DNA of 45,539 bases from a virus, in the IMG/VR virus record IMGVR_UViG_3300047319_001382, positions 1 through 45,539 of that record; one strand, 5' to 3'. Below are positions 1,854 to 26,661 of the stretch, piece by piece. The first letter of the stretch is position 1. Every line of letters begins with the position of its first letter. A program made the translations under genes and the position numbers. The notes beneath the pieces were generated by a model. That model was not told the origin of the DNA and did no database searches. It worked only from the letters and a program-made list of their open reading frames with translations.

Positions 1854-2227
1854 GCCTCACCTCCGTTGAACATGTCCTCGAGCTTCAGCTCCTTGATCAT
1901 GTAGCGCACTGCGTCAGCCACTGCTGCCTTGTCGATCTTCATGAACTCGACCGAGGCCTCGACCGTGGTGTACATGTCGATCTTGATCTTGGCCTTGGTC
2001 ATCACGCCTACCCAGATCTTGCCCTCCTCGGCCTGCATGATCGGCATGTCCGTGGGCATGAACACGAACGAGGCCTTCTTGCCGTGGATCGTCATCGGCA
2101 CCGTGATCATCGACTTCGACACCGTCGCCCCTGTTGGCGCGGGATAGATCACGCCCGGTGTGTAGGTCACGCCCGGGCTGAACATCGGGTTCGAAGGCAG
2201 GTGACCGCCCTTGATGTCCTGATTCAT
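1850..2227 (-). CDS. Hypothetical protein, 125 aa
   Basis: ATG 2227 has GAGGAAGG upstream and overlaps the methyltransferase stop as ATGA. The N-terminal 40 residues are Pro/Gly/Thr-rich and look disordered; the rest (from SMITVPMTIHGKK) alternates beta strands and ends in two helices (AAVADAVRYMIKEL). No catalytic motif or known family was recognised. It sits in an accessory string of methyltransferase, small peptide and nuclease genes. Confidence 0.7.
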   Translation of the reverse strand: MNQDIKGGHLPSNPMFSPGVTYTPGVIYPAPTGATVSKSMITVPMTIHGKKASFVFMPTDMPIMQAEEGKIWVGVMTKAKIKIDMYTTVEASVEFMKIDKAAVADAVRYMIKELKLEDMFNGGEA

Positions 2228-3027
2228 CTCGCCTTCCTCAGCACCCAGGCGCAGTTGCTGGACGCCATGGGATACTTGGGAGCCAGGAAGTTCGACAACA
2301 CCTCGTTGCTCAGGAACTTCCCGAGCTCGTCCAGGAGCTGCCTCTCCTGCTCCGTGCAGGCCTTGCGGATCTTGTTCGCAGACGCGAACGTGCCGTGCAC
2401 CGACTCCACGCGGAGACCCGCCTGGATGATCGCTGCGTTCAGCTCGTCGAAGTCCCACTCGTAGATGTGATTCGCGGCCTGAGCCTTCTTGTTATACACC
2501 GGCGTCGAGAGCAGGAACCTGGACTCGCTGTTCATGAAGCTCTCAGCAGCTGCCAGGAGCCTGAGACCGCGACGCTTGTTCATGTGCTCGATCACCTCGA
2601 AGCACGTGATCACGTCGAAGGTCTTGCTGATCTTCGAGATCTCCTGGTAGCGCTCCACGAAGTTGAACTCACCCAGGAAGTGAGCCCACCTGAAGTTGTA
2701 GTGAACGTCGATCTCGTTGATGTCCACGCCGACGTAGATCTTGGGCACCCAGCTCATGTGAGGCCTGCCCAGCACGTAGGCCAGCGTCTGATCGCGACCG
2801 CAACCGATGTCCAGCACCCGCGTGCCGTTGCCCACGAACCGGCCTGCCCAGCCGTAGCGGAAAAAGTGAGCCGCGTAGTCGCGGTGCACCGTCCTCGTGT
2901 AGTGCTTGGCCGGCAGGTACGTGCGATCGTAGTCCCTCTCCAGGTCGATGCCGTTCCTGGCGTTCAGCACGCGCACGCGACCGCCCCCTCGTGTGACCTT
3001 GATCCTCGGTCTCCCGCCCTTCGGCAT
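2224..3027 (-). CDS. SAM-dependent methyltransferase, class I
   Basis: The 267-residue protein has a Rossmann-fold methyltransferase core. Motif I is VLDIGCGRDQTL (around residue 70), the acidic ribose-binding residue lies in YVGVDINE, and motif IV is FDVITCFEVIEHM, followed by a strand FLLSTP. This resembles Methyltransf_11/23-type small-molecule, sugar or protein methyltransferases rather than DNA methylases, since no (D/N)PPY motif is present. ATG 3027 overlaps the upstream stop as TGATG; a TTG at 3030 is an alternative. The target is unknown; the nearby carbohydrate-active genes allow a glycan substrate. Confidence 0.8.
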   Translation of the reverse strand: MPKGGRPRIKVTRGGGRVRVLNARNGIDLERDYDRTYLPAKHYTRTVHRDYAAHFFRYGWAGRFVGNGTRVLDIGCGRDQTLAYVLGRPHMSWVPKIYVGVDINEIDVHYNFRWAHFLGEFNFVERYQEISKISKTFDVITCFEVIEHMNKRRGLRLLAAAESFMNSESRFLLSTPVYNKKAQAANHIYEWDFDELNAAIIQAGLRVESVHGTFASANKIRKACTEQERQLLDELGKFLSNEVLSNFLAPKYPMASSNCAWVLRKAR

Positions 3028-3278
3028 CAAGACGCCACCGCCTTCTTGGCGCGGGGCCTCTTGGGCGGAGCTTCGCCACGAAAGAACGGAGCCTTCCTCA
3101 CCTCATAGTCCGGCGGCCACTTGTGCGTGGCTTGACGGACATACGACTTCACGCCCTTCTTCTTGAGCGCGGCCTGGCGCGCCAACAACTCCTCCTCCGG
3201 GATCAACGAGCTCCCGTCCTTGTCGACCAACACGAGAGCGATCCGGTCGTTCTGGTTCGCAAAGTCCTTCGTCTTCAC
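3027..3278 (-). CDS. Small basic protein, unknown
   Basis: GTG 3278 is preferred over ATG 3290 because GGAGG lies 5 nt before it and it overlaps the upstream stop as GTGA. The 83-residue product has an N-terminal strand-rich part (DRIALVLVDKDGS), a short helix (PEEELLARQAALKKKG) and a very basic Pro/Lys/Arg tail (PPKRPRAKKAVAS), suggesting nucleic-acid contact. No family is recognised. Confidence 0.65.
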   Translation of the reverse strand: MKTKDFANQNDRIALVLVDKDGSSLIPEEELLARQAALKKKGVKSYVRQATHKWPPDYEVRKAPFFRGEAPPKRPRAKKAVAS

Positions 3279-3652
3279 GCCCGCCTCCATTGTTCGTGCA
3301 TCTCGGGTCTGATCAGCATCACCGGCTTCCCCAACTGCTTGGCCAGCGACACGACGTGAGCCGTGCCGCTGCTCTTGCCGTCCCAGAACGCGACCATCCT
3401 GCTGCACGTCTGGGCGATGGTCCGGTTGCGCTCGAGAGGCGCCCTGGGACCATGCTTCAGGTAGTCGGGCTTGATCACGACCACCATCATCTGCCTCAAC
3501 CTGGCGACGCGCTCGGCCTCACGATCCACGCCGCGCGCGCCGCCCGTGATCACGATCGTGTGGTCGGGCAAGGCCATCAGGTAGGCCTCGACCATGCGCA
3601 TGATCGGGTATTCCCTGCTGCCGACGACTGCGACTCGCTCGGCAGTGATCAC
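3275..3652 (-). CDS. YspA/DUF2493-type SLOG protein
   Basis: The 125-residue protein matches the small SLOG-fold group related to YpsA and DprA. It has GSREYP near the start, the nucleotide-binding signature ITGGARGVDREA (residues 34-46), then ERNRTIAQ and FWDGKSSGTAH. SLOG proteins bind nucleotides or nucleotide-sugar ligands and occur in phage and defence contexts. Translation starts at a GTG that overlaps the upstream stop. A second, more divergent relative may be encoded at 10012-10491. Confidence 0.8.
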   Translation of the reverse strand: MITAERVAVVGSREYPIMRMVEAYLMALPDHTIVITGGARGVDREAERVARLRQMMVVVIKPDYLKHGPRAPLERNRTIAQTCSRMVAFWDGKSSGTAHVVSLAKQLGKPVMLIRPEMHEQWRRA

Positions 3653-14245: not shown

Positions 14246-15535
14246 TTACTTGACGTCCACGACCTTGCCGACGTGGATGGGCACGTTGCCCGGTTGACCT
14301 GAGACGTTGCAGACGATGACCACCATGTCGCGAGGCATCTCGTGCTTCGCGGGCCACGGCGTGATGCAGTCGGTGATCAAGACCATCATGTTGTAGCCCT
14401 TCTCCTCGGCGTACTTGAAGGCGAGACGCATGTCGGTGCCGCCGCCGCCCTTGAGGAGTTTCTTGATCGCCTCGGCGTCACTCACGGACGCCACCTCCTG
14501 GATCTTCGCATCCACCGCGAAGCACTCGCATGCGCAGTTGACCGCCTTCAAGATCCCCGCGGCCTCGCTCACCGCGGAGACCAGCAGGCCGGCCATACTG
14601 CCCGAGGTGTCGATCGCGATCGCGGGCCGCGGTACGCGGGAGATCGTGCTCGGCAACACCGGCGCCTTCGATCCCCACAGGCCTGCGACCGCCCAGCTGC
14701 GACGCGACGGCCGACGATACGAGAAGTCCGTGGCGCCCTTGACCACGTTGATGCCGTGACGGACGTGCGCGGCGAGTTGCTTGCGCCAGTCGATCGTCGG
14801 CGGCTTCAACTGCTCGTTGGCCCACACGGCCCAACTGCCCGGGACCGTTCCCGGCTGCTGACCACGGATCGCCTCGGCCGTGGTCTTGCGGATCACGCCC
14901 TGCTCGATCTCGTTGTTCTTCGACACGTCGCACGCCTTGCCCTCGATCGGATCGGGGTTCGATGCGCAACCGCCGCAGCGACCGCCCGCTCCGGGCATCG
15001 GCTTGCCCAACGTGATCTTGACGATGCGGCCGTCCTTCACCGCCTTCTCCGCGCCCTCCAGGAGTGCGAGCACGTAGAACTCCATGGTCTTCCTCTCGGG
15101 GAACTTAAACAGCCGCGGCGTCAACGGCGTGAAGCCGACCGGCCACGCGAATCCCGTGGCCAAGATGTCGTCGTTGATCTCGAGGTCGCCCGCGTAGTTG
15201 CACAACGCGTGCATGGACTCGATGCCGTACATCGCCATCAACGCGTCCCTCACCTGGTCGTAGCGCGAAGAGATCAACGGCTTGATCGCGTTGCCGCGGG
15301 CGTGATGCTCCCGCTCGTTGTGCTGCAACTCGTGGAGCTGGACCGTGGCCGCGCCGTCCGGCCCGATCGCCTCGGCGAAGTCGGGGTCGTAGAACATGCG
15401 CGACCCCTCATCCACCGCGAACGTACCGAGACCCTTCGACTCGACGGGCTTGAGATTGTAGACGGCCGTCGTGAACCACGTCAAGATGCTGTGGATCTTG
15501 AGACGGCCTGCGGCGAGGATCGAGAGACCCCTCAT
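14246..15535 (-). CDS. DUF2201-type metallopeptidase with VWA domain
   Basis: The 429-residue protein has an N-terminal putative metallopeptidase domain with an HExxH motif (His68, Glu69, His72 in LHELQHNEREHH). A Cys cluster follows (CGGC near 187-190). The C-terminal domain is a VWA-like fold with the MIDAS sequence DTSGSM (309-314) and a GGTD loop (366-369). This is the architecture of the DUF2201 partners of MoxR AAA+ ATPases, which act as metal-dependent chaperone or remodelling machines. The MoxR gene lies two genes upstream. ATG 15535 overlaps the upstream stop. Confidence 0.8.
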   Translation of the reverse strand: MRGLSILAAGRLKIHSILTWFTTAVYNLKPVESKGLGTFAVDEGSRMFYDPDFAEAIGPDGAATVQLHELQHNEREHHARGNAIKPLISSRYDQVRDALMAMYGIESMHALCNYAGDLEINDDILATGFAWPVGFTPLTPRLFKFPERKTMEFYVLALLEGAEKAVKDGRIVKITLGKPMPGAGGRCGGCASNPDPIEGKACDVSKNNEIEQGVIRKTTAEAIRGQQPGTVPGSWAVWANEQLKPPTIDWRKQLAAHVRHGINVVKGATDFSYRRPSRRSWAVAGLWGSKAPVLPSTISRVPRPAIAIDTSGSMAGLLVSAVSEAAGILKAVNCACECFAVDAKIQEVASVSDAEAIKKLLKGGGGTDMRLAFKYAEEKGYNMMVLITDCITPWPAKHEMPRDMVVIVCNVSGQPGNVPIHVGKVVDVK

Positions 15536-16077
15536 GACTGCACCCCCTTCTTCTTCGCGATGCGGTTGTACTCGTCGGAGATCGCCGCCTGCTCGGCCGC
15601 GTACATCTCCCTCATCCCCTTCAGCACCTCGCCCATGTCGCCCGTGAGGTCGAAGGCGAGGGCGCACTCGTCCGCGGACTTGATCGCGTCCTGGACGCGC
15701 TTCATGTGGACCGACGCGTAGGCGCCAGCCTTCTTGAAGTCGAGATCATTCCACGACTTCTTGACGGCTGAAAGTCTGCTCTTCGCGACGCTGACTGTGT
15801 GGTCCAACGCCCTGCGGATGCGGCCCGCCTCCTCCATCATCGCGATCTTCGCCATGCGCATCAGCGAGTCCTTCTCATTGGAGTCGAAGCGGACGATCTC
15901 CACCTTCGCGCCCTTGCTCGTCATCTCGTTGATCGGCAGGAGGGCCACGCGGCCCTCCGGCACGATCCAGCACGAGTAGTTGATGCGGACGCCGTGGCGC
16001 TTGAACTGCTCGCTAGGATTGACGATCTCCTTGGTGAGCCGCGCCGGGATGTCGTACACGATCAGGTAGTAGTTCAT
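15532..16077 (-). CDS. Third member of MoxR/VWA cluster, unknown
   Basis: The 181-residue protein begins MNYYLIVYDIPARL and continues SEQFKRHGVRINYSCWIVP, which resembles the first half of small ferredoxin-fold proteins such as Cas2/VapD, although no CRISPR array is present. The remainder is a charged helical segment (SVAKSRLSAVKKSWNDLD). It sits between the MoxR ATPase and the metallopeptidase/VWA gene and is coupled to the latter by ATGA. ATG 16077 follows AAGGGAACCGTCA, a leader shared with the ATPase gene. It may be an adaptor or substrate for the pair. Confidence 0.65.
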   Translation of the reverse strand: MNYYLIVYDIPARLTKEIVNPSEQFKRHGVRINYSCWIVPEGRVALLPINEMTSKGAKVEIVRFDSNEKDSLMRMAKIAMMEEAGRIRRALDHTVSVAKSRLSAVKKSWNDLDFKKAGAYASVHMKRVQDAIKSADECALAFDLTGDMGEVLKGMREMYAAEQAAISDEYNRIAKKKGVQS

Positions 16078-16102
16078 TGACGGTTCCCTTCGGTTGGTTG
16101 GT

Positions 16103-17263
16103 TTACTTCTTGTCGAGGGCGATGCCGCTCGCGTTGATCACGGGGTTGACGATCGCCGCGATCTTGACGACGAGCGGGTTGTCGGCCCAGTTGGACGGAC
16201 GGTTCTTCTCGTTGACGAGGATGCGCGTCGCGATCGCGACGAAGTCCTCGCCCATCGGCAGAACCTTGTCGAGCAGAGGCCACGCGGCCGACCAGCGCCG
16301 CTTGTACTCGGCGGTCTTCTTGTTGTCCGCACGGACGGCGGCGCGGCCGATGGCGCCGCACACCGCGAACGTGATGTCGGGACGGTCGGCCTTCGGATTC
16401 CACTTCACCTTGCCGTCCAGGAGGTCGTCGGCGTTGGGGAGGTTCATCTCCTTGCGCGCCTTCTCGAACTGAATGCCGCACGGCTCGCCGATCGTGCCGA
16501 TGGCGATCGTCGGCAACAGGTCCTCCATGTCCAGCGCGATCGCGGTCGCGTAGAGGTTGACGAGGTTGCGCCACGACCGGATGGTGGCGTACGCCATGGG
16601 GAACCGCCCGCGGATCGCGGCCGGCGACTCCTTAGGAAGCGCGCCGAGTTTCCTCGCGTAGCCCTCGACCACGGACTGCACGTGGTCGTACGCGATCTGC
16701 CGCTTCTCGGGATCAACCTTCTCCAACGCGGGCACGTTGTCCTCGCCCGCCAGGTGGGCGAGGAACTCGGTGAGGTCCGGGCCGTCCGTCTGCACGTGCT
16801 GCAGGCGGTTGGCTAGCGGGTACGGCATCTCGGTGCCGTTGGCCGCGGTCTCCGGCGGGTTGCCGATCAACATGTGCCGCGCGGTGTCGGGCAAGTAGTC
16901 GTCGTCGATCGCGCCCTCGTGGACGATGCGCATCGTCGCCGCTTGACACGCGGCCGGGCTCGACGTGATCTCGTCCCAGATGATCAGCGTCGGTTCGCCC
17001 TTCATCGCGTCGTGGAACCACTGCGGCTTGAGGTGCTTGGTGTACTCGTTCTTCTCCGACGGGTACGGCGTACCGCCGATGTCGGTCGGGTCCATCATCG
17101 ACGTGATCAGAACGTTCTTCCGCCACTTGTAGCTTTGGGCGAGCGCGTACGCGGCGCTCGTCTTGGCGGTGCCCGGGTCCGACCAAATCATGAGAGGCGG
17201 CGCGACATTCTTCGGCGTCTGCAGGTTCACGTGCATCAGGCGGATCAACTGTTTGAAGTTCAT
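16103..17263 (-). CDS. MoxR-family AAA+ ATPase
   Basis: The 386-residue protein has a Walker A loop SDPGTAKTS (28-36), a Walker B LIIWDEITSS (Asp97, Glu98), a sensor-like IGNPPETAANG and an Arg-containing PLANRLQHV segment typical of MoxR-type AAA+ proteins. These ATPases form hexamers that work with VWA-domain partners to remodel or insert metals into target proteins. The partner is encoded at 14246-15535. The ATG at 17263 is preceded by AAGGGGAACCGTC. Phage examples are known but their role is not established. Confidence 0.85.
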   Translation of the reverse strand: MNFKQLIRLMHVNLQTPKNVAPPLMIWSDPGTAKTSAAYALAQSYKWRKNVLITSMMDPTDIGGTPYPSEKNEYTKHLKPQWFHDAMKGEPTLIIWDEITSSPAACQAATMRIVHEGAIDDDYLPDTARHMLIGNPPETAANGTEMPYPLANRLQHVQTDGPDLTEFLAHLAGEDNVPALEKVDPEKRQIAYDHVQSVVEGYARKLGALPKESPAAIRGRFPMAYATIRSWRNLVNLYATAIALDMEDLLPTIAIGTIGEPCGIQFEKARKEMNLPNADDLLDGKVKWNPKADRPDITFAVCGAIGRAAVRADNKKTAEYKRRWSAAWPLLDKVLPMGEDFVAIATRILVNEKNRPSNWADNPLVVKIAAIVNPVINASGIALDKK

Positions 17264-19703: not shown

Positions 19704-20144
19704 GTGGCCGACCACGATCTTCTCAAGCGGATGTTCGAGATGCAGCACGATCTCCAAGCGCGACTCGGGACGCCGATGATCGGCGACGACGCGAGGCGGA
19801 AACGCGGCGGCATCCGGATCAACTCACTCGCGGACCTCAACGAGACCGACCGCGCTGTGATCAAGAAGTGGCACAAGGAGTTCTCGCTCGCGCTGATGAT
19901 GGAGGCGAGCGAGTTGATGGACTGGAGTCCGTGGAAGCACTGGAGCTCGCGACTCGGCAACAAGGCGGAGATCACGTTCCTCGGACCCGACCACCTGCGC
20001 GAGGTCCACATGGAGATCGTGGACTGCTTCCACTTCCTGATCGATCTCGCCTTGCTGTACGGCTTCACCGCGGAGGATCTCTTCGAGACGTTCGCCGAGA
20101 AGAACGCGATCAACCACCGCCGCCAGGACGGAGGCTCGTACTAA
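19704..20144 (+). CDS. Dimeric dUTPase/dCTPase-type NTP pyrophosphatase
   Basis: The 146-residue protein belongs to the all-alpha NTP pyrophosphatases (dimeric dUTPase, MazG, T4 dCTPase). Metal-binding ExxE (Glu67, Glu70 in MEASEL) and ExxD (Glu104, Asp107 in MEIVDCFHF) are present, and the C-terminus has the KNAINHRRQDGGSY signature of dimeric dUTPases. It would convert dUTP, and possibly dCTP, to the monophosphate. GTG 19704 follows AGGAGG with a 7-nt spacer. It opens a five- to six-gene nucleotide operon and overlaps the kinase start by one base (TAATG). Confidence 0.85.
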   Translation: MADHDLLKRMFEMQHDLQARLGTPMIGDDARRKRGGIRINSLADLNETDRAVIKKWHKEFSLALMMEASELMDWSPWKHWSSRLGNKAEITFLGPDHLREVHMEIVDCFHFLIDLALLYGFTAEDLFETFAEKNAINHRRQDGGSY

Positions 20145-20656
20145 TGATCATCGTGGAGGGAGTCGATCGCGTCGGCAAGTCGAGCTTGGTGAAGGTGCTC
20201 GCACGGAACCTTGGATTCAAGATCGTTCACTGTGTCGTCCCGCCGGACGGCGAGAGCGTCTTCGACTACCACATGCGCATGATCCAGGACGGCGAGGACG
20301 CGATCGTCGATCGCCTCCACTGGTCGGAGTACGCGTACGGCGAGACGTACCGCCAGGGATGTGGGTACACGAAGAAGCAGTGGCGTCAGCTCGAGGACGA
20401 ACTCCAGGCGGCGGAGGCTGGCGTCATCCTTCTCAGCGACTCGCTCAAGCTGATCCGCGAGCGTTGGGGACCGGAGGAGCAGTTCGACGTCGCCGGCCTC
20501 GTGCGGCTCGACAGTTTCTTCTTCGACGTGTTCTTCAACCGCGCGCCGTTCAAGTCCGACCTGCCGCGGCGTCACTACAACTGGCGTGACTTCTTCAACC
20601 CCGACGGGTCCGAGCGCGGCGACGCCTTGAAGACCATGACGAAGTCGCTGTGGTGA
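20144..20656 (+). CDS. dNMP kinase (thymidylate-kinase-like)
   Basis: The 170-residue protein starts with a P-loop MIIVEGVDRVGKSS (GVDRVGKSS at 6-14), as in thymidylate kinases, followed by IVDRLHWSEYAYGETY (DR-type motif) and VILLSDSLKLIRERWG in place of the LID region. It would phosphorylate a deoxynucleoside monophosphate. In the T4 hydroxymethylcytosine pathway a dNMP kinase handles the modified nucleotide, and the gene set here is analogous. Substrate cannot be read from sequence alone. Confidence 0.8.
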   Translation: MIIVEGVDRVGKSSLVKVLARNLGFKIVHCVVPPDGESVFDYHMRMIQDGEDAIVDRLHWSEYAYGETYRQGCGYTKKQWRQLEDELQAAEAGVILLSDSLKLIRERWGPEEQFDVAGLVRLDSFFFDVFFNRAPFKSDLPRRHYNWRDFFNPDGSERGDALKTMTKSLW

Positions 20657-21096
20657 AGGACATGCGGCTCGGGGTTGACGAGTACTTCATGCAGATCGCC
20701 CACGCGACCAAGACGCGATCGACCTGCCCACGCGCCCAGGTGGGAGCTGTCCTCGTGTCTGACGGTAGGATCGTGAGCGCCGGATTCAACGGCGCGCCTC
20801 ACGGGGCGCCTCACTGCAGCGAGTTCGGGTGCTTCATCGTGGACGACCACTGCCGCGGGGCGGTCCACGCCGAGATCAACGCCCTGCTCCACGCCGAGAA
20901 GTACGGCGACACGATCTACGTGACCCACACGCCGTGCCTCGAGTGCCTCAAGGCGATCATCAACCACGGCGTCATCCGCATCGTCTACGACCTGGACTAC
21001 CGTGACGACGCGCGCGAGCAGTTCATCGGCTGGCTCGCGAACAACCCGACCACGAAGGTCCGGCTGGTGATGCAGCGGATCAGGAGGGAGTCGTGA
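20653..21096 (+). CDS. dCMP deaminase
   Basis: The 147-residue enzyme has the zinc cytidine/deoxycytidylate deaminase motifs: HAE (His72, Glu74 in AVHAEINALL) and PCxxC (Cys95, Cys98 in TPCLECLKAI), preceded by RAQVGAVLVSDGRIVSAGFNGAP typical of dCMP deaminases. It converts dCMP to dUMP for thymidylate synthesis. The GTG at 20653 overlaps the kinase stop as GTGA; GTG 20650 and ATG 20662 are alternatives. Confidence 0.9.
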   Translation: MKDMRLGVDEYFMQIAHATKTRSTCPRAQVGAVLVSDGRIVSAGFNGAPHGAPHCSEFGCFIVDDHCRGAVHAEINALLHAEKYGDTIYVTHTPCLECLKAIINHGVIRIVYDLDYRDDAREQFIGWLANNPTTKVRLVMQRIRRES

Positions 21097-21590
21097 GCGA
21101 GCTGACGAAGAACGAGGAGGCCGCGATCACCGCCTTCAACGAGGCCACCGGGCACGTCGCTCACAACTACGGCACGCGAGCCTCCATTGCTGTCGGCCGC
21201 GAGCTGATTAGGCTCCGCGCCCGCATCGCGGAGCTGGAAGCCGAGACGAAGCGCGCGCGGGACTACTCCATCCACATGGATGGTCTCCTGCGTGCGGAGG
21301 AAGCCCGCATCGCGGAGCTGGAGCGGGAGCGGGACGCCTTCGGGGCTGGGTTGGACAAGGCCAACCACAAGCGGGCCGTCGCCGAGTCACAGCTCGCCGC
21401 TGCGCGGGAGGCGCTGAGCAACGTTCCGCATGAGGACCACTGTCTAGCGGACGCCGTGACCATCGGCCCCGCCGGCATCCGCGGCATCGTCAAGCGCGGG
21501 GGAGACCCCGACGCATTCCCGCAGCCCTGCACTTGTGCGTTGGCCGCAGTCCGCGCCGCTCTCGACGGGCTCGGGGAGAAAAAGGCGTGA
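21093..21590 (+). CDS. Coiled-coil hypothetical protein
   Basis: GTG 21093 overlaps the deaminase stop and has AGGAGGGAG upstream. Residues 30-110 form a long coiled coil (LRARIAELEAETKRARD, ARIAELERERDAF, AVAESQLAAAREAL). The C-terminal part has His/Cys residues (HEDHCLADA, PQPCTCALAAVR) that may bind metal. Similar coiled-coil proteins are common in phages without known function. It is embedded in the nucleotide operon. Confidence 0.7.
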   Translation: MSELTKNEEAAITAFNEATGHVAHNYGTRASIAVGRELIRLRARIAELEAETKRARDYSIHMDGLLRAEEARIAELERERDAFGAGLDKANHKRAVAESQLAAAREALSNVPHEDHCLADAVTIGPAGIRGIVKRGGDPDAFPQPCTCALAAVRAALDGLGEKKA

Positions 21591-22495
21591 ACTACCTCGG
21601 CTCGTTCCCGTCGATGGATCAGGCGTACCCCATCCTGGTGAGCCGAGTCGTCAAGGACGGCGAGAGGCTGTCGCCTCGCGGGATGGTGTCGATCGAGATG
21701 AGGCCGGCGTCGTTCACGATCACTGATCCGACACGGGCCGTGTACACCGGCGAGAAGCGCAAGATGAGTTACAGGTTCCTCGCGGTCGAGACGCTCAGCT
21801 ACCTGGCGGGTCTCGGCGACGAGAAGACTGCGAAGCTCCTGGTCGCGGTGAACAAGAACCTCGATCCATACCTCAACAAGTTGACGATGAAGTTCGACGG
21901 CGCCTACGGACCGCGGCTCAGGCAGAGTCTCCCGGCGGTGGTCGCGCTCCTCGATCGAGATCGCGACAGCAGGCAGGCGGTCGCCGCGATCTGGTCTCCC
22001 GGCATACCGGAGTCGATCGACGTCCCATGCACCGTGTCGCTGCACTTCTACGTCGCCCACGACAAGCTCGAGATGACGGCCTACATGAGGTCCAACGATC
22101 TGATGTGGGGAACGCCGTACGACGTCGCGGCCTTCTGCATCCTGCAGCAGGCGGTGGCGAAGAGCCTCGGCCTCCAGGTGGGCGCGTATCACCACGTCGC
22201 CGACTCGCTCCACGTCTACCAGGAGCGCGTGCCCGACGTCAAGGACGACAAGACGATCGACCTGCCGTTCGAGCCGTTCAAGAAGATGGTGTGCGAGTCC
22301 ATGCACCCGAGCTCGATCATCCGTCACATGATGGATGACTCGGCCGACCTGATCAAGCAGATCTACAGGTTCTTGAACCTCGACAGCATCGACGGTCCAC
22401 CGAAGACCGCCAGCCACCTGCGGTTCTTGTTCGGGCAGTCCAAGGACCCGGTGGAGAACGCGTGGGTACGCATGCTCAACGGGAAGTGGCTGTGA
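21587..22495 (+). CDS. Thymidylate-synthase-fold enzyme, probable dCMP hydroxymethylase
   Basis: The 302-residue protein keeps the thymidylate synthase core: RQAV near 129, the nucleophile in VPCTVSLHFYV (Cys148), the phosphate-contact RSND (168-171), WGTPYDVAAF and HHVADSLHVYQ. In thymidylate synthase the segment PFNIAS supplies the Asn that recognises dUMP; here the matching residue is Asp179. An Asp at this place is the hallmark of dCMP hydroxymethylases such as T4 gp42. Together with the neighbouring pyrophosphatase, kinase and deaminase this predicts synthesis of 5-hydroxymethyl-dCMP. Alignment was by eye. GTG start overlaps the upstream stop. Confidence 0.75.
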   Translation: MNYLGSFPSMDQAYPILVSRVVKDGERLSPRGMVSIEMRPASFTITDPTRAVYTGEKRKMSYRFLAVETLSYLAGLGDEKTAKLLVAVNKNLDPYLNKLTMKFDGAYGPRLRQSLPAVVALLDRDRDSRQAVAAIWSPGIPESIDVPCTVSLHFYVAHDKLEMTAYMRSNDLMWGTPYDVAAFCILQQAVAKSLGLQVGAYHHVADSLHVYQERVPDVKDDKTIDLPFEPFKKMVCESMHPSSIIRHMMDDSADLIKQIYRFLNLDSIDGPPKTASHLRFLFGQSKDPVENAWVRMLNGKWL

Positions 22496-23595
22496 GGGCG
22501 ATCGGTTACTTGGTCGGCGGCGGCTCGATGTCGCTGGGCGTCGAGGCGGCTGGGTTCGAGATCTCCGGCGTGTGGGAGACGCCCGGTTACTCGAAGAACG
22601 CTCAGTCGTGGGATCTCAACCGCCCGATGCTCGCGCACTCGGTCCAGGAGGTCCGCGCTGGGTCTCGATTCCTGGGCGGTGACGACGTGGATCTGATCTA
22701 CGGCAACCCGCCGTGTGGAGGTCTCTCCAACACGACGGGTGCTCAGCACACGAGTCCCACGAACCTCGTCATGCAGAACTGGTTGGGGATGGTGATCAAG
22801 GCGAGGCCTCGCGCGATCCTGATGGAGAACGCGTTCCAGCTCGCCACCGGGGCCGGCGCCCCGATCCGCGATCTCCTCGGCTCACAGCTCGACGACGCGG
22901 GCTACAAGTCGACGATCTGGCTGATCGACTCCTGGGAGCTCGGTACGCCTCAAGTCCGGCGGCGCGCGTTCCTGGCCGCGGTCAAGGAGGGCTCGATCGT
23001 TGACGTCAAGTGGAGCGTGCCCTACCAGTTGAGGGAGGAGAACTCGTATCCCAAGGAAGTGTGGGCGGAGACGCGCTTGATCGACGCCGACCCGAGCCCC
23101 AGTCCCTTCTACGACGTCGCCGGGACCAAGATCACGCAGCACTGGTGGAACAAGACGGGCTATCAGCACAACGAGCTGCTCAAGGAACATGGCGATCGGA
23201 TCACGCTCGGCAAGTTCCTCACTCCTCACGAGCTCAAGATGCTCGAGGCGCGCGCGGCGGCCGGAATCAAGTCAGCGAAGCGAGAGATCGAGAAGCGGAT
23301 GCCATTGCTCTGGCCTGAGGTGCCGCGCGCGTTCTCGAAGCCCAAGCAGTTCAAGGTGATCAGGCGGCTCAGGGCCGAGGCCCCGAGCTTCGTGGTGCTG
23401 TCGGAGTTCAACCTGGCTCACCCGACCTTGAACCGCCTCCTCACGATGCGCGAGATGGCGCGGCTCATGGGCTACCCGGACGACTGGGTGTTCCACGTCC
23501 TCCACCCGCGGCTGGTCGCGCAGGGGGTGCCCGTGGCGAACGCGAGATGGGCGGCGTCAAGGCTCATGGAAGCCTTGACGGCCGCCCACTCGTGA
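22492..23595 (+). CDS. Cytosine-C5 DNA methyltransferase
   Basis: The 367-residue protein has the ordered motifs of C5 methyltransferases: a glycine-rich motif I (LVGGGSMSLGVEAAGF), motif IV with the catalytic Cys75 (YGNPPCGGLS), motif VI MENA (Glu112-Asn113), motif VIII QVRRR (154-158), and motifs IX/X near the end (LTMREMARLMGYPDDW, GVPVANARW). A region of about 170 residues between VIII and IX is the likely target-recognition domain. The GTG at 22492 overlaps the upstream stop. No cognate restriction gene is nearby, so it is an orphan methylase. Specificity unknown; CCWGG is a candidate because that word is enriched. Confidence 0.85.
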   Translation: MRAIGYLVGGGSMSLGVEAAGFEISGVWETPGYSKNAQSWDLNRPMLAHSVQEVRAGSRFLGGDDVDLIYGNPPCGGLSNTTGAQHTSPTNLVMQNWLGMVIKARPRAILMENAFQLATGAGAPIRDLLGSQLDDAGYKSTIWLIDSWELGTPQVRRRAFLAAVKEGSIVDVKWSVPYQLREENSYPKEVWAETRLIDADPSPSPFYDVAGTKITQHWWNKTGYQHNELLKEHGDRITLGKFLTPHELKMLEARAAAGIKSAKREIEKRMPLLWPEVPRAFSKPKQFKVIRRLRAEAPSFVVLSEFNLAHPTLNRLLTMREMARLMGYPDDWVFHVLHPRLVAQGVPVANARWAASRLMEALTAAHS

Positions 23596-23596
23596 G

Positions 23597-24001
23597 CTAG
23601 ACGCCGAACGCCTTGTCGACGTGAGGCTTCAGCCAGCCGTCCCACAGGACCTTGGCCATCCCGCTGTGGAGGAAGCCGAGCAGGAGGTTGGTCGCGAAGT
23701 TGTGCGGCTGGCCTCCGCCGGTGGCGGCGAGCGCGTTCGTGACGCCGCCCAGTGTCCCTAGGATATAGAGCACGACGTTGACCCAGGGGATGAGATCGTT
23801 GGACCAGTTCTTGGCGAAGGGCGCGAACTTCCAGATCATCCCGACTGCAACCATGATCAGCACCGCACTGCCCTTCAACCACGCGAGCAGGTTGACGGCG
23901 ATCTCGGGATGGATGGGCGACGGCGCCGGCGGCGCCTGAGCGAGGACGGTCGCGGCAACGAACAGCCCGACAACCGCCAGAAGCAGCTTGAGAATCTTCA
24001 T
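23597..24001 (-). CDS. Membrane protein, holin candidate
   Basis: The 134-residue protein starts with a hydrophobic signal-like segment (MKILKLLLAVVGLFVAATVLA), a Pro-rich linker, a transmembrane helix (GSAVLIMVAVGMIWKF) and another hydrophobic stretch (IPWVNVVLYILGTLGG). This multi-spanning small protein next to the endolysin and another membrane protein fits a holin. ATG 24001 has AGGAGG upstream. Its stop lies 1 nt from the stop of the convergent methyltransferase, with no room for a terminator. Confidence 0.6.
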   Translation of the reverse strand: MKILKLLLAVVGLFVAATVLAQAPPAPSPIHPEIAVNLLAWLKGSAVLIMVAVGMIWKFAPFAKNWSNDLIPWVNVVLYILGTLGGVTNALAATGGGQPHNFATNLLLGFLHSGMAKVLWDGWLKPHVDKAFGV

Positions 24002-25003: not shown

Positions 25004-25768
25004 TCACTCAGAATCGGGTCCGTCTGACTCGTCCTCCGGCGTGCCGGAGCCAATCCCGAAGCGGCCGAGGAGCGTCGCGGCAACGGTCCCGGCGATCGCC
25101 GACTGGAGGAGGCCGGACGCGCCCTTGGCCATCGTGTGGTTCATGGACGCGACCACCTGCTCGTGGAGCATCGCCGGCAGCACCTCGTTGGTGGTGTGGA
25201 TCGCTACCGAGTAGAAGTGGAGACGGCGCTGGATGTCCTCGGACGCCACGAACCGATACAGGGTCTTGATCGCGCCGCCCTCCCTGATGAAGACGCCGCG
25301 GTTCTTGATCACGAACACTGGTCCCATGGGCGACGTGCCGCGAAGTTGCGATCCCTGGCGGTGGAGGTTCAGTCGGCTGAGGTACATCCCTGGAGGGACG
25401 CTCTCCCTCTGTGACGGCCTGGCGCCGCCCACGATCGGGATCGCGATGTTGGCGCCCAACTCCGGATGCTGGCTGCCGCCCTCCTCGAACTGCGAGAGCC
25501 TCAACCTCTTCTTCTGCCCGATGCGGATCATCGCCCACATGCGTCCGACCGTCGGCCTGGCGAACGGCTTGATGATCGCGATCTGACGGAGGATGAACTT
25601 CGACTTCCTCACGGTGACGTCTTCCTGGATCTTGAGGCGCTGCCTCTCCTGTATGAGTTTCATCGTCGCGTTGATCGAGTTGGAGATGGCATACGCCTTC
25701 TGGCGCTCGCTGAGGAGTAGGGCTTCCAGGACGAAGTTGTCCTTGAGTTCCGCCTCCATGGTGACCAT
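25004..25768 (-). CDS. Probable distal tail or virion protein
   Basis: The 254-residue protein follows the tail-tip genes with a TGATG coupling. It has a helical N-terminus (LEALLLSERQKAYAISNSIN), a basic middle (IRIGQKKRLRLSQF), a beta domain (GMYLSRLNLHRQG, VFVIKNRGVFIREGG, LHFYSVAIHTTNEVLP) and a Gly/Ala-rich end. No family was recognised. Its place between tail proteins and the lysis cassette suggests a tail or baseplate component. Confidence 0.55.
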   Translation of the reverse strand: MVTMEAELKDNFVLEALLLSERQKAYAISNSINATMKLIQERQRLKIQEDVTVRKSKFILRQIAIIKPFARPTVGRMWAMIRIGQKKRLRLSQFEEGGSQHPELGANIAIPIVGGARPSQRESVPPGMYLSRLNLHRQGSQLRGTSPMGPVFVIKNRGVFIREGGAIKTLYRFVASEDIQRRLHFYSVAIHTTNEVLPAMLHEQVVASMNHTMAKGASGLLQSAIAGTVAATLLGRFGIGSGTPEDESDGPDSE

Positions 25769-26202
25769 CAGACGGGGAGGAGGCCGTCCTGCCCCATGTA
25801 CAGCTTGTCGGTCTCATTCTCGTACACGACCCACGCATCGACCGTGACGCTGGGAACGTCCGGTCCAGCCACTGCGGCGACGAGACGCAGTGTGATATAC
25901 GGCCAGCCCATGTATGGAACACCGGTCGCCACGGTGATGACCACTGGCATCGGGTTCGTGAGGCTGAGTACGTGACCGCTCACGCCGTCGCCGAGAAGGT
26001 TGGTACCTGCCGGGTTGAAGAAACCGCCGCTCCCCGTGCCAGATCCAATCCACGTGCACGGCTGCGGCGCACCGCCGCCGTTGCCGTACACCAGGAAGTG
26101 AATGGCCTTTGCACCCAGACACGGGATGTACTTCGTGAACAGCTGGTTGTTGGTCACGAGAGTCTGGTTGTCGATGACCTTCGGGTATTTGAACGTCTTC
26201 AC
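25768..26202 (-). CDS. Tail-region protein, paralogue 1
   Basis: The 144-residue product shares FKYPKVIDNQTLV, TKYIPC-GAKAI, GGAPQ, SGGFF-PAG, VYENETDKL and GQDGLLP with its neighbour at 26215-26661, so the two are tandem duplicates. Both look like compact beta proteins and could form part of the tail tip or host-range apparatus. GTG 26202 has GGAGG upstream. Amino-acid differences concentrate in central loops. Confidence 0.65.
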   Translation of the reverse strand: MKTFKYPKVIDNQTLVTNNQLFTKYIPCLGAKAIHFLVYGNGGGAPQPCTWIGSGTGSGGFFNPAGTNLLGDGVSGHVLSLTNPMPVVITVATGVPYMGWPYITLRLVAAVAGPDVPSVTVDAWVVYENETDKLYMGQDGLLPV

Positions 26203-26214
26203 CGCGCACCTCCG

Positions 26215-26661
26215 TCAGGCCGGCAGCAGTCCGTCCTGACCGTTGACCAGCTTGTCAGTCTCGTTCTCATAGATCACATAGGCATCGACAGTGACGTTGG
26301 TGACGTCGTTGGCTGGAGACGCGCCGGCGTTGCCGATCAGTCTCAAGATCAGGTAAGGCCACCCAAGATAGAAGAGACTGGGGGTGGGGTAGAACGTGAC
26401 TGACATCGGGTTCGTCGGAGTGAGGGCGTGGCCGTTCACGCCGTCGGCGGTCGCCAATCCAGCGGGTGCGAAGAATCCTCCGCTAGGAATCCCTGATCCG
26501 ATGGTGTTGATGGCCTGAGGCGCGCCGCCTACGGCAGCTCCGACAACGAGGAACACAATCGCCTTGGCTCCCTGGCACGGGATGTACTTCGTGTTGAGTG
26601 CGCCGCCAGCGGCAACGAGCGTCTGGTTGTCGATGACCTTCGGGTACTTGAATACCTTCAC
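26215..26661 (-). CDS. Tail-region protein, paralogue 2
   Basis: The 148-residue duplicate of the gene at 25768-26202. Conserved blocks are MKVFKYPKVIDNQTLV, TKYIPCQGAKAIVFLV, GWPYLILRL, VTVDAY-VIYENETDKLV and GQDGLLPA, roughly half of the positions by eye. GTG 26661 has GAGGACACC upstream. The pair lies directly downstream of the large tail-tip protein, suggesting two versions of a beta-rich accessory tail protein. Confidence 0.65.
   Translation of the reverse strand: MKVFKYPKVIDNQTLVAAGGALNTKYIPCQGAKAIVFLVVGAAVGGAPQAINTIGSGIPSGGFFAPAGLATADGVNGHALTPTNPMSVTFYPTPSLFYLGWPYLILRLIGNAGASPANDVTNVTVDAYVIYENETDKLVNGQDGLLPA

Follow-up and report, generated by a model that had tools for sequence, protein, structure and literature searches.

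The virus record IMGVR_UViG_3300047319_001382 of IMG/VR, used here whole with its 45,539 bases (the window), encodes terminase, portal, head and tail genes, and at positions 19704–23595 it carries six compactly arranged genes on the plus strand that are predicted to form an operon for the synthesis of 5-hydroxymethyl-dCTP (hm-dCTP), by which 5-hydroxymethylcytosine (hmC) would enter the phage DNA wholly or partly. From the sequence and the structure models a probability of about 0.75 is given to this reading. The central gene encodes a thymidylate synthase (TS) homologue of the Asp type, a presumptive deoxycytidylate (dCMP) 5-hydroxymethylase, and the last gene a homologue of C5-cytosine methyltransferases in which motifs I and X are altered. 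The hmC gene set alone matches known systems, and it is the methyltransferase homologue paired with it that sets the operon apart. A first-pass annotation of the window had described a T4-like set of a pyrophosphatase, a P-loop kinase, a dCMP deaminase and a TS-fold protein; all four are found at that place by Pfam and PHROG matches, but a small coiled-coil open reading frame (ORF) and the methyltransferase homologue had been overlooked.

Active site of the thymidylate synthase homologue

The TS homologue (21587–22495, plus strand, GTG start) belongs to PF00303 (E 1.8e-20) and phrog_5131 (7.5e-47), and with the GTG at 21587 counted as codon 1 the positions of interest are E68, Y107, R129, D145, C148, T149, S169, D171, D179, H209 and Y211. 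The family match, the alignment and the structure match all show a TS fold with the nucleophilic Cys148 and the catalytic Glu68. Asp179 stands at the position of Asn177 in E. coli TS, the replacement that the first-pass annotation had read, and the numbers of this residue and of the Cys are the same as in T4 gp42. The annotation had also taken the Asn-to-Asp change to separate dCMP hydroxymethylases from thymidylate synthases; it does mark a dCMP-type enzyme, and is found in 80 of 80 related loci, but alone it fits hydroxymethylation, methylation or flavin hydroxylation, and further residues were therefore compared.

In an alignment with T4 gp42 and E. coli ThyA, a check named in the first-pass annotation, Cys148, Asp179 and Asp145 are gp42-like and Gly takes the place of T4 Ser94. 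Asp145 lies three residues before the Cys (Cys-3), where ThyA has Leu. For T4 dCMP hydroxymethylase, PMC6400193 describes Asp145 as the residue that activates the attacking water and an Asp or Glu at Cys-3 as a signature, and its account of the D145N variant reports no formation of hydroxymethyl-dCMP (hm-dCMP). Thr149 and Asp179 occupy the two positions at which, according to the MetaGPA report, conservation differs most between contigs with and without modification (PMC8670742). In MilA, a CMP 5-hydroxymethylase, Ala176 and Lys133 are reported to set the preference for CMP, and a double change to Ser and Arg to shift it to dCMP (PMC5175136); the window protein differs from MilA in having this deoxyribose-favouring pair, as Ser169 and Arg129. 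Trp80 and Trp83 of E. coli are replaced by Leu and Tyr, and the folate-site residues Asp171 and Gly175 are retained together with Tyr211. Jointly, the residues compared point to 5-hydroxymethylation of dCMP over dTMP synthesis. The earlier proposal that cytosine is replaced, wholly or partly, by a 5-modified form thus gains support from Asp145, Thr149, Ser169 and Arg129, and from the gp56-like dCTPase described below.

An AlphaFold2 model of the protein (mean predicted local distance difference test score, pLDDT, 82.1) has MilA as its best structural match (Z 29.9, 26% identity, 276 residues), followed by AfhB, a phage dCMP hydroxylase dependent on flavin adenine dinucleotide (Z 25.0), and E. 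coli TS (Z 23.8). MilA is also the best match in sequence (E 2.6e-20), with a common DVxCT active-site stretch, and the similarity to T4 gp42 is distant (26% over 69 residues).

The 80 related loci are the best matches from an alignment-based scan of viral contigs with an Asp-type query and not a random sample; single-sequence scans of viral and genome contigs gave no confirmed relative, and the relatives came from alignment queries. All 80 carry Cys146, Thr147, Asp177, Ser167, Arg126 and Tyr94 (E. coli numbers), as does the window, and Asp143, which corresponds to T4 Asp145, is present in 79 of them and in the window. Within 7 kb of the TS gene there is a dCMP deaminase in 69/80, a kinase-like gene in 29/80, a pyrophosphatase in 12/80 and a methyltransferase homologue in 6/80. 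One close relative, L096, has a cluster in which the Asp-type TS is accompanied by ThyX, a pyrophosphatase, a weak glycosyltransferase-like match, a fused kinase-like gene, a dCMP deaminase and a methyltransferase homologue that is 47% identical to that of the window; since ThyX is separately encoded, the Asp-type TS is not needed there for dTMP. The fused gene of L096 (6987–7988) joins a deoxynucleoside monophosphate (dNMP) kinase-like protein to a domain of the uracil-DNA-glycosylase superfamily, inside the hmC gene cluster.

Operon structure and proposed pathway

Overlaps are read at all five junctions of the six genes, with TAATG at 20142–20146, a 7-base overlap at 20650 and GTGA overlaps at 21093, 21587 and 22492, and the island is therefore regarded as a single plus-strand operon. 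The genes named outside it are all on the minus strand, and its 3' end faces one of these, at 23597, tail to tail.

The first gene (19704–20144) encodes an all-alpha NTP pyrophosphatase of the dUTPase_2 and T4 gp56 dCTPase kind (PF08761, E 1.3e-13; phrog_173, 8e-19). Its translation contains the ExxE/ExxD motif already noticed in the first reading (E67xxE70 and E104xxD107), and pairwise BLASTP against T4 gp56 gives 33% identity over 72 residues (E 1e-13); the enzyme is proposed to remove dCTP, and dUTP, giving dCMP. It is followed by a P-loop dNMP-kinase-like protein (20144–20656; phrog_761 'thymidylate kinase', 9e-11), a proposed hm-dCMP kinase, whose ATG at 20144 overlaps the pyrophosphatase stop codon; in the relative L101 such a kinase and an Asp-type TS are fused into one protein. 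The dCMP deaminase (20650–21096) has HAE and PCxxC motifs and matches PF00383 (5e-22) and phrog_174 (2e-46). The coiled-coil ORF (21093–21590) has no PHROG match, and none of the 80 TS loci contains a homologue of it. The TS and methyltransferase homologues complete the operon.

The reactions, their order and the extent of replacement are predictions. The gp56-like enzyme would convert dCTP to dCMP, and the TS homologue would place the methylene group of methylene-tetrahydrofolate on C5 of dCMP, where water activated by Asp145 would attack to give hm-dCMP. The phage kinase and then a host kinase would carry this to hm-dCTP, and the dCMP deaminase would supply dUMP to host synthesis of dTMP. 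The polymerase inserting hmC is probably that of the host, since no DNA polymerase was found among the window genes scanned. After replication, the methyltransferase homologue would act on the hmC-containing DNA, its Cys attacking C6 within a pocket that is rebuilt where the donor and the substituent at C5 would lie.

Some observations weigh against this reading. The Ser or Thr expected two residues before the active-site Tyr (Ser94 in T4) is absent, the window having Gly-Ala-Tyr; in the 80 relatives the column holds Gly in 67, Ser in 11 and Ala in 2, and Ala is also found in gp29 of phage SPO1, a dUMP hydroxymethylase. Arg127 of E. coli TS is Gln in the window, and likewise in 76 of the 80 relatives. 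The kinase reaches the Pfam family Thymidylate_kin with only 5e-5, which is a weak match below the family cut-off. SPO1 gp29 shares the TS fold, Asp at Cys-3 and Gln for Arg127 with the window protein, and differs in having Asn177 and Asn147, the uracil type. With the Ser94 signature missing, the protein is classified as an Asp-type, MilA-like TS homologue that would work like gp42, and not as a member of the gp42 subfamily.

A dCMP methylase, by which 5-methylcytosine would be made before replication, as by the enzyme of Xanthomonas phage XP12, is an improbable alternative. An Asn-to-Asp TS is indeed described as able to methylate dCMP (PMC8670742), but the window has Asp145 in place of the Leu of TS and Leu and Tyr in place of Trp80 and Trp83, and the T4 D145N result from PMC6400193 also speaks for hydroxymethylation. 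A flavin-dependent dCMP 5-hydroxylase like AfhB of the RB69-like phages, which would lead to 5-hydroxycytosine, is very unlikely. AfhB is the second-best structural match and shares the Cys, the Thr and Asp177, and its near-identical relative in RB69, ORF048c, has Glu at Cys-3; however, ORF048c has lost the folate-site residues Asp169 (to Asn) and Gly173 (to Val) as well as Tyr209 (to Phe; E. coli numbers), and as the window keeps all three, folate chemistry is favoured. MilA is moreover clearly nearer to the window model than AfhB. That the protein is a plain thymidylate synthase supplying dTMP, as its PF00303 membership and the database family names would have it, can practically be dismissed in view of Asp179, Thr149 and Asp145, the separate ThyX of L096 and a separate Asn177 TS in Bacillus phage G.

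Altered motifs of the methyltransferase homologue

The longest ORF of the last gene begins at 22462, and the GTG at 22492, which gives the GTGA overlap with the TS stop codon, is taken as the start (22492–23595, plus strand). The product matches PF00145 (E 4.2e-28), and its model (pLDDT 70.8) has the full C5-methyltransferase fold, closest to M.HaeIII (1dct; Z 27.8, root mean square deviation 3.0 over 280 residues), then HhaI (Z 25.5) and CmoX (Z 25.1). The catalytic residues Cys81, Glu119, Arg163 and Arg165 are kept, as in nearly all members of the group, indicating that C6 is still attacked. The ribose-binding Glu40 is also retained.

Two other positions are changed. Phe18 of motif I, the residue that stacks on the adenine, is Leu in the window; only 15/79 relatives still have Phe there, but all 80 of the ordinary C5-methyltransferases used as controls do. 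Asn304 of motif X is Gln in the window and is preserved in 5/79 relatives, against 77/80 controls; the relatives have Lys in 53, Gln in 16, Asn in 5, Leu in 3, Ala in 1 and Arg in 1, and the remaining controls Asp in 2 and Glu in 1. The search patterns for the controls force Gln82, Asn120 and Val121, and these columns were left unused; Phe18, Gly20 and Asn304 are not forced. The motif X column was validated with a canonical phage enzyme, whose Asn falls there, and with CmoX, the cytosine C5-carboxymethyltransferase of phage S-B43, whose Arg350 falls there as published, at the position of HhaI Asn304 (PMC12783734). By the precedent of HhaI and CmoX the changed residues would sit near the adenine and at the donor end of the pocket.

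Association with Asp-type thymidylate synthases

Whole viral records, which may be fragments, were searched for TS genes, 79 with relatives of the methyltransferase homologue and 80 with ordinary C5-methyltransferases. A TS is present in 53 of the 79 relative records (27/40 and 26/39), and all 53 have an Asp177 TS, two of them with an additional Asn177 TS; in the controls a TS is found in 3/80 (2/40 and 1/40), all with Asn177, and the Asp type in none. Among members without Asn304 the Asp-type TS is found in 53/74, against 0/80 controls (Fisher p ~2e-24), and in records of at least 30 kb in 38/42. By motif X residue the counts are 38/53 for Lys, 13/16 for Gln, 1/1 each for Ala and Arg, 0/5 for Asn and 0/3 for Leu. 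After dereplication at 70% identity, counted by representatives, 35 of 53 relative clusters and 0 of 56 control clusters have the Asp-type TS. Of the 42 relative loci that remain after dereplication, 28 have a pyrophosphatase homologue no more than 10 kb from the methyltransferase-like gene (29/43 with the window).

Several points limit this association. Five of the six search seeds came from beside Asp-type TS genes, so that the sample is biased for this association, and 6 of the 53 records had already been obtained in the TS search, leaving 47/73 without them. A phylogenetically independent test of Asn304 loss against the Asp-type TS found just one or two independent pairs and had no power; its tree was made from the window, L012, 27 controls and 44 members kept after dereplication, and the fragmentary L147, L150 and L172 were left out. 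In the opposite direction, the 6/80 Asp-type TS loci with a methyltransferase homologue within 7 kb make it an optional addition. The association with Asp-type TS is thus strong but partly one of descent, with few branches changed, and its one-way nature fits a tailoring enzyme to which there are alternatives, glucosyltransferases among them. No paper linking this methyltransferase group to Asp-type TS was found in the open-licence PMC literature.

Possible function of the methyltransferase homologue

Since hmC has no hydrogen at C5, its ordinary methylation is impossible. Of the roles considered for the homologue, action on DNA that contains hmC is the most probable. We tentatively propose, at somewhat less than even odds, that the homologue belongs to an undescribed group with the C5-methyltransferase fold that acts on hmC already in the DNA. 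After attack of the Cys on C6, the 5-hydroxymethyl group might be expelled or activated as an exocyclic methylene, to which a nucleophile or a non-methyl donor in the rebuilt pocket could add, or the group might be removed at chosen sites. Known decorations of hmC are sugars or carbamoyl groups. In vitro, engineered M.SssI is reported to couple thiols to hmC (PMC7176277), and C5-methyltransferases to strip the hydroxymethyl group from it (PMC11347137). If the proposal is true, the enzyme would lead to hypermodified cytosine directly and without a kinase, and with its methyltransferase fold and its tie to hmC synthesis it would represent a new class that decorates, edits or un-decorates the base. 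It could then be used to label hmC, which is widely studied in animal epigenetics. Phages with hmC escape many restriction and CRISPR systems.

The homologue could also be an ordinary site-specific C5-methyltransferase using S-adenosylmethionine (SAM) and acting against restriction, with a coincidental neighbourhood. This is unlikely, although the full fold with its Z of 27.8 to M.HaeIII, the catalytic residues and Glu40 are what such an enzyme would have; the loss of Phe18 and Asn304 in most relatives, set against their conservation in the controls, the Asp-type TS in 53/79 relative and 0/80 control records, and the lack of a replaceable C5 hydrogen in hmC all argue against it.

Less probable still is a transfer of carboxymethyl from carboxy-SAM, made by the host, in the manner of CmoX. 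CmoX likewise is a phage protein of C5-methyltransferase fold with the motif X residue changed, and Lys, the residue most common in the relatives, is the change reported for M.MpeI engineered to use carboxy-SAM (PMC12783734). However, the SPPC and Arg350 of CmoX are NPPC and Gln in the window protein, which has also lost the motif I Phe that CmoX retains, and unlike CmoX its relatives go together with Asp-type TS. CmoA, the source of carboxy-SAM and typically encoded in the same genome as CmoX, is found neither in the window record nor in the 50 of 53 Asp-type TS records that were searched whole, and as a positive control the same query found S-B43 at 8e-30.

Comparison with T4 and phage G

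With T4 the window shares the dCTPase homologue (gp56), the dNMP-kinase-like protein (gp1), the dCMP deaminase (cd) and the TS-fold enzyme (gp42) with Asp179, Cys148 and Asp145. Gly in the place of Ser94 sets the window enzyme apart from gp42. Unlike T4, the window has the additional methyltransferase homologue and no glucosyltransferase family among the genes scanned; neither a glucosyltransferase nor a carbamoyltransferase family was detected among 36 window proteins in a Pfam scan that covered small ORFs only in part.

Bacillus phage G has the same pair as the window, a Gln-type methyltransferase homologue, gp301, and an Asp177 TS, gp319, about 13 kb apart. It differs in that the two are separated by a pair of genes with the annotation alpha glucosyl transferase and in its second TS with Asn177. 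The phage G locus (L317; JN638751, 219303–234494) holds gp301, the two alpha glucosyl transferase genes, a deaminase and gp319 within 16 kb, suggesting from gene content that this classic, cultured phage may have modified cytosine.

Other genes in the window

On the minus strand, a class I methyltransferase is encoded at 2224–3030 (Methyltransf_23, 2.5e-12). Tried as a candidate for CmoA it was rejected, since it matched no CmoA family and a phmmer comparison with E. coli CmoA gave nothing at E<=10. A small protein of the SLOG superfamily (3275–3652, minus strand; YAcAr 5e-9, DprA-like 3e-10) has a fold of the nucleotide-sensing type. In the region 14246–17263, also on the minus strand, a MoxR-like AAA ATPase (16103–17263, phrog_1297) adjoins a DUF2201/VWA metallopeptidase-like protein (14246–15667), forming an ATPase-VWA pair. 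The adjacent minus-strand ORFs 25768–26202 and 26215–26661 encode clearly similar proteins, both starting MK[TV]FKYPKVIDNQTLV, and represent a tandem duplication of a small protein, probably one of the virion.

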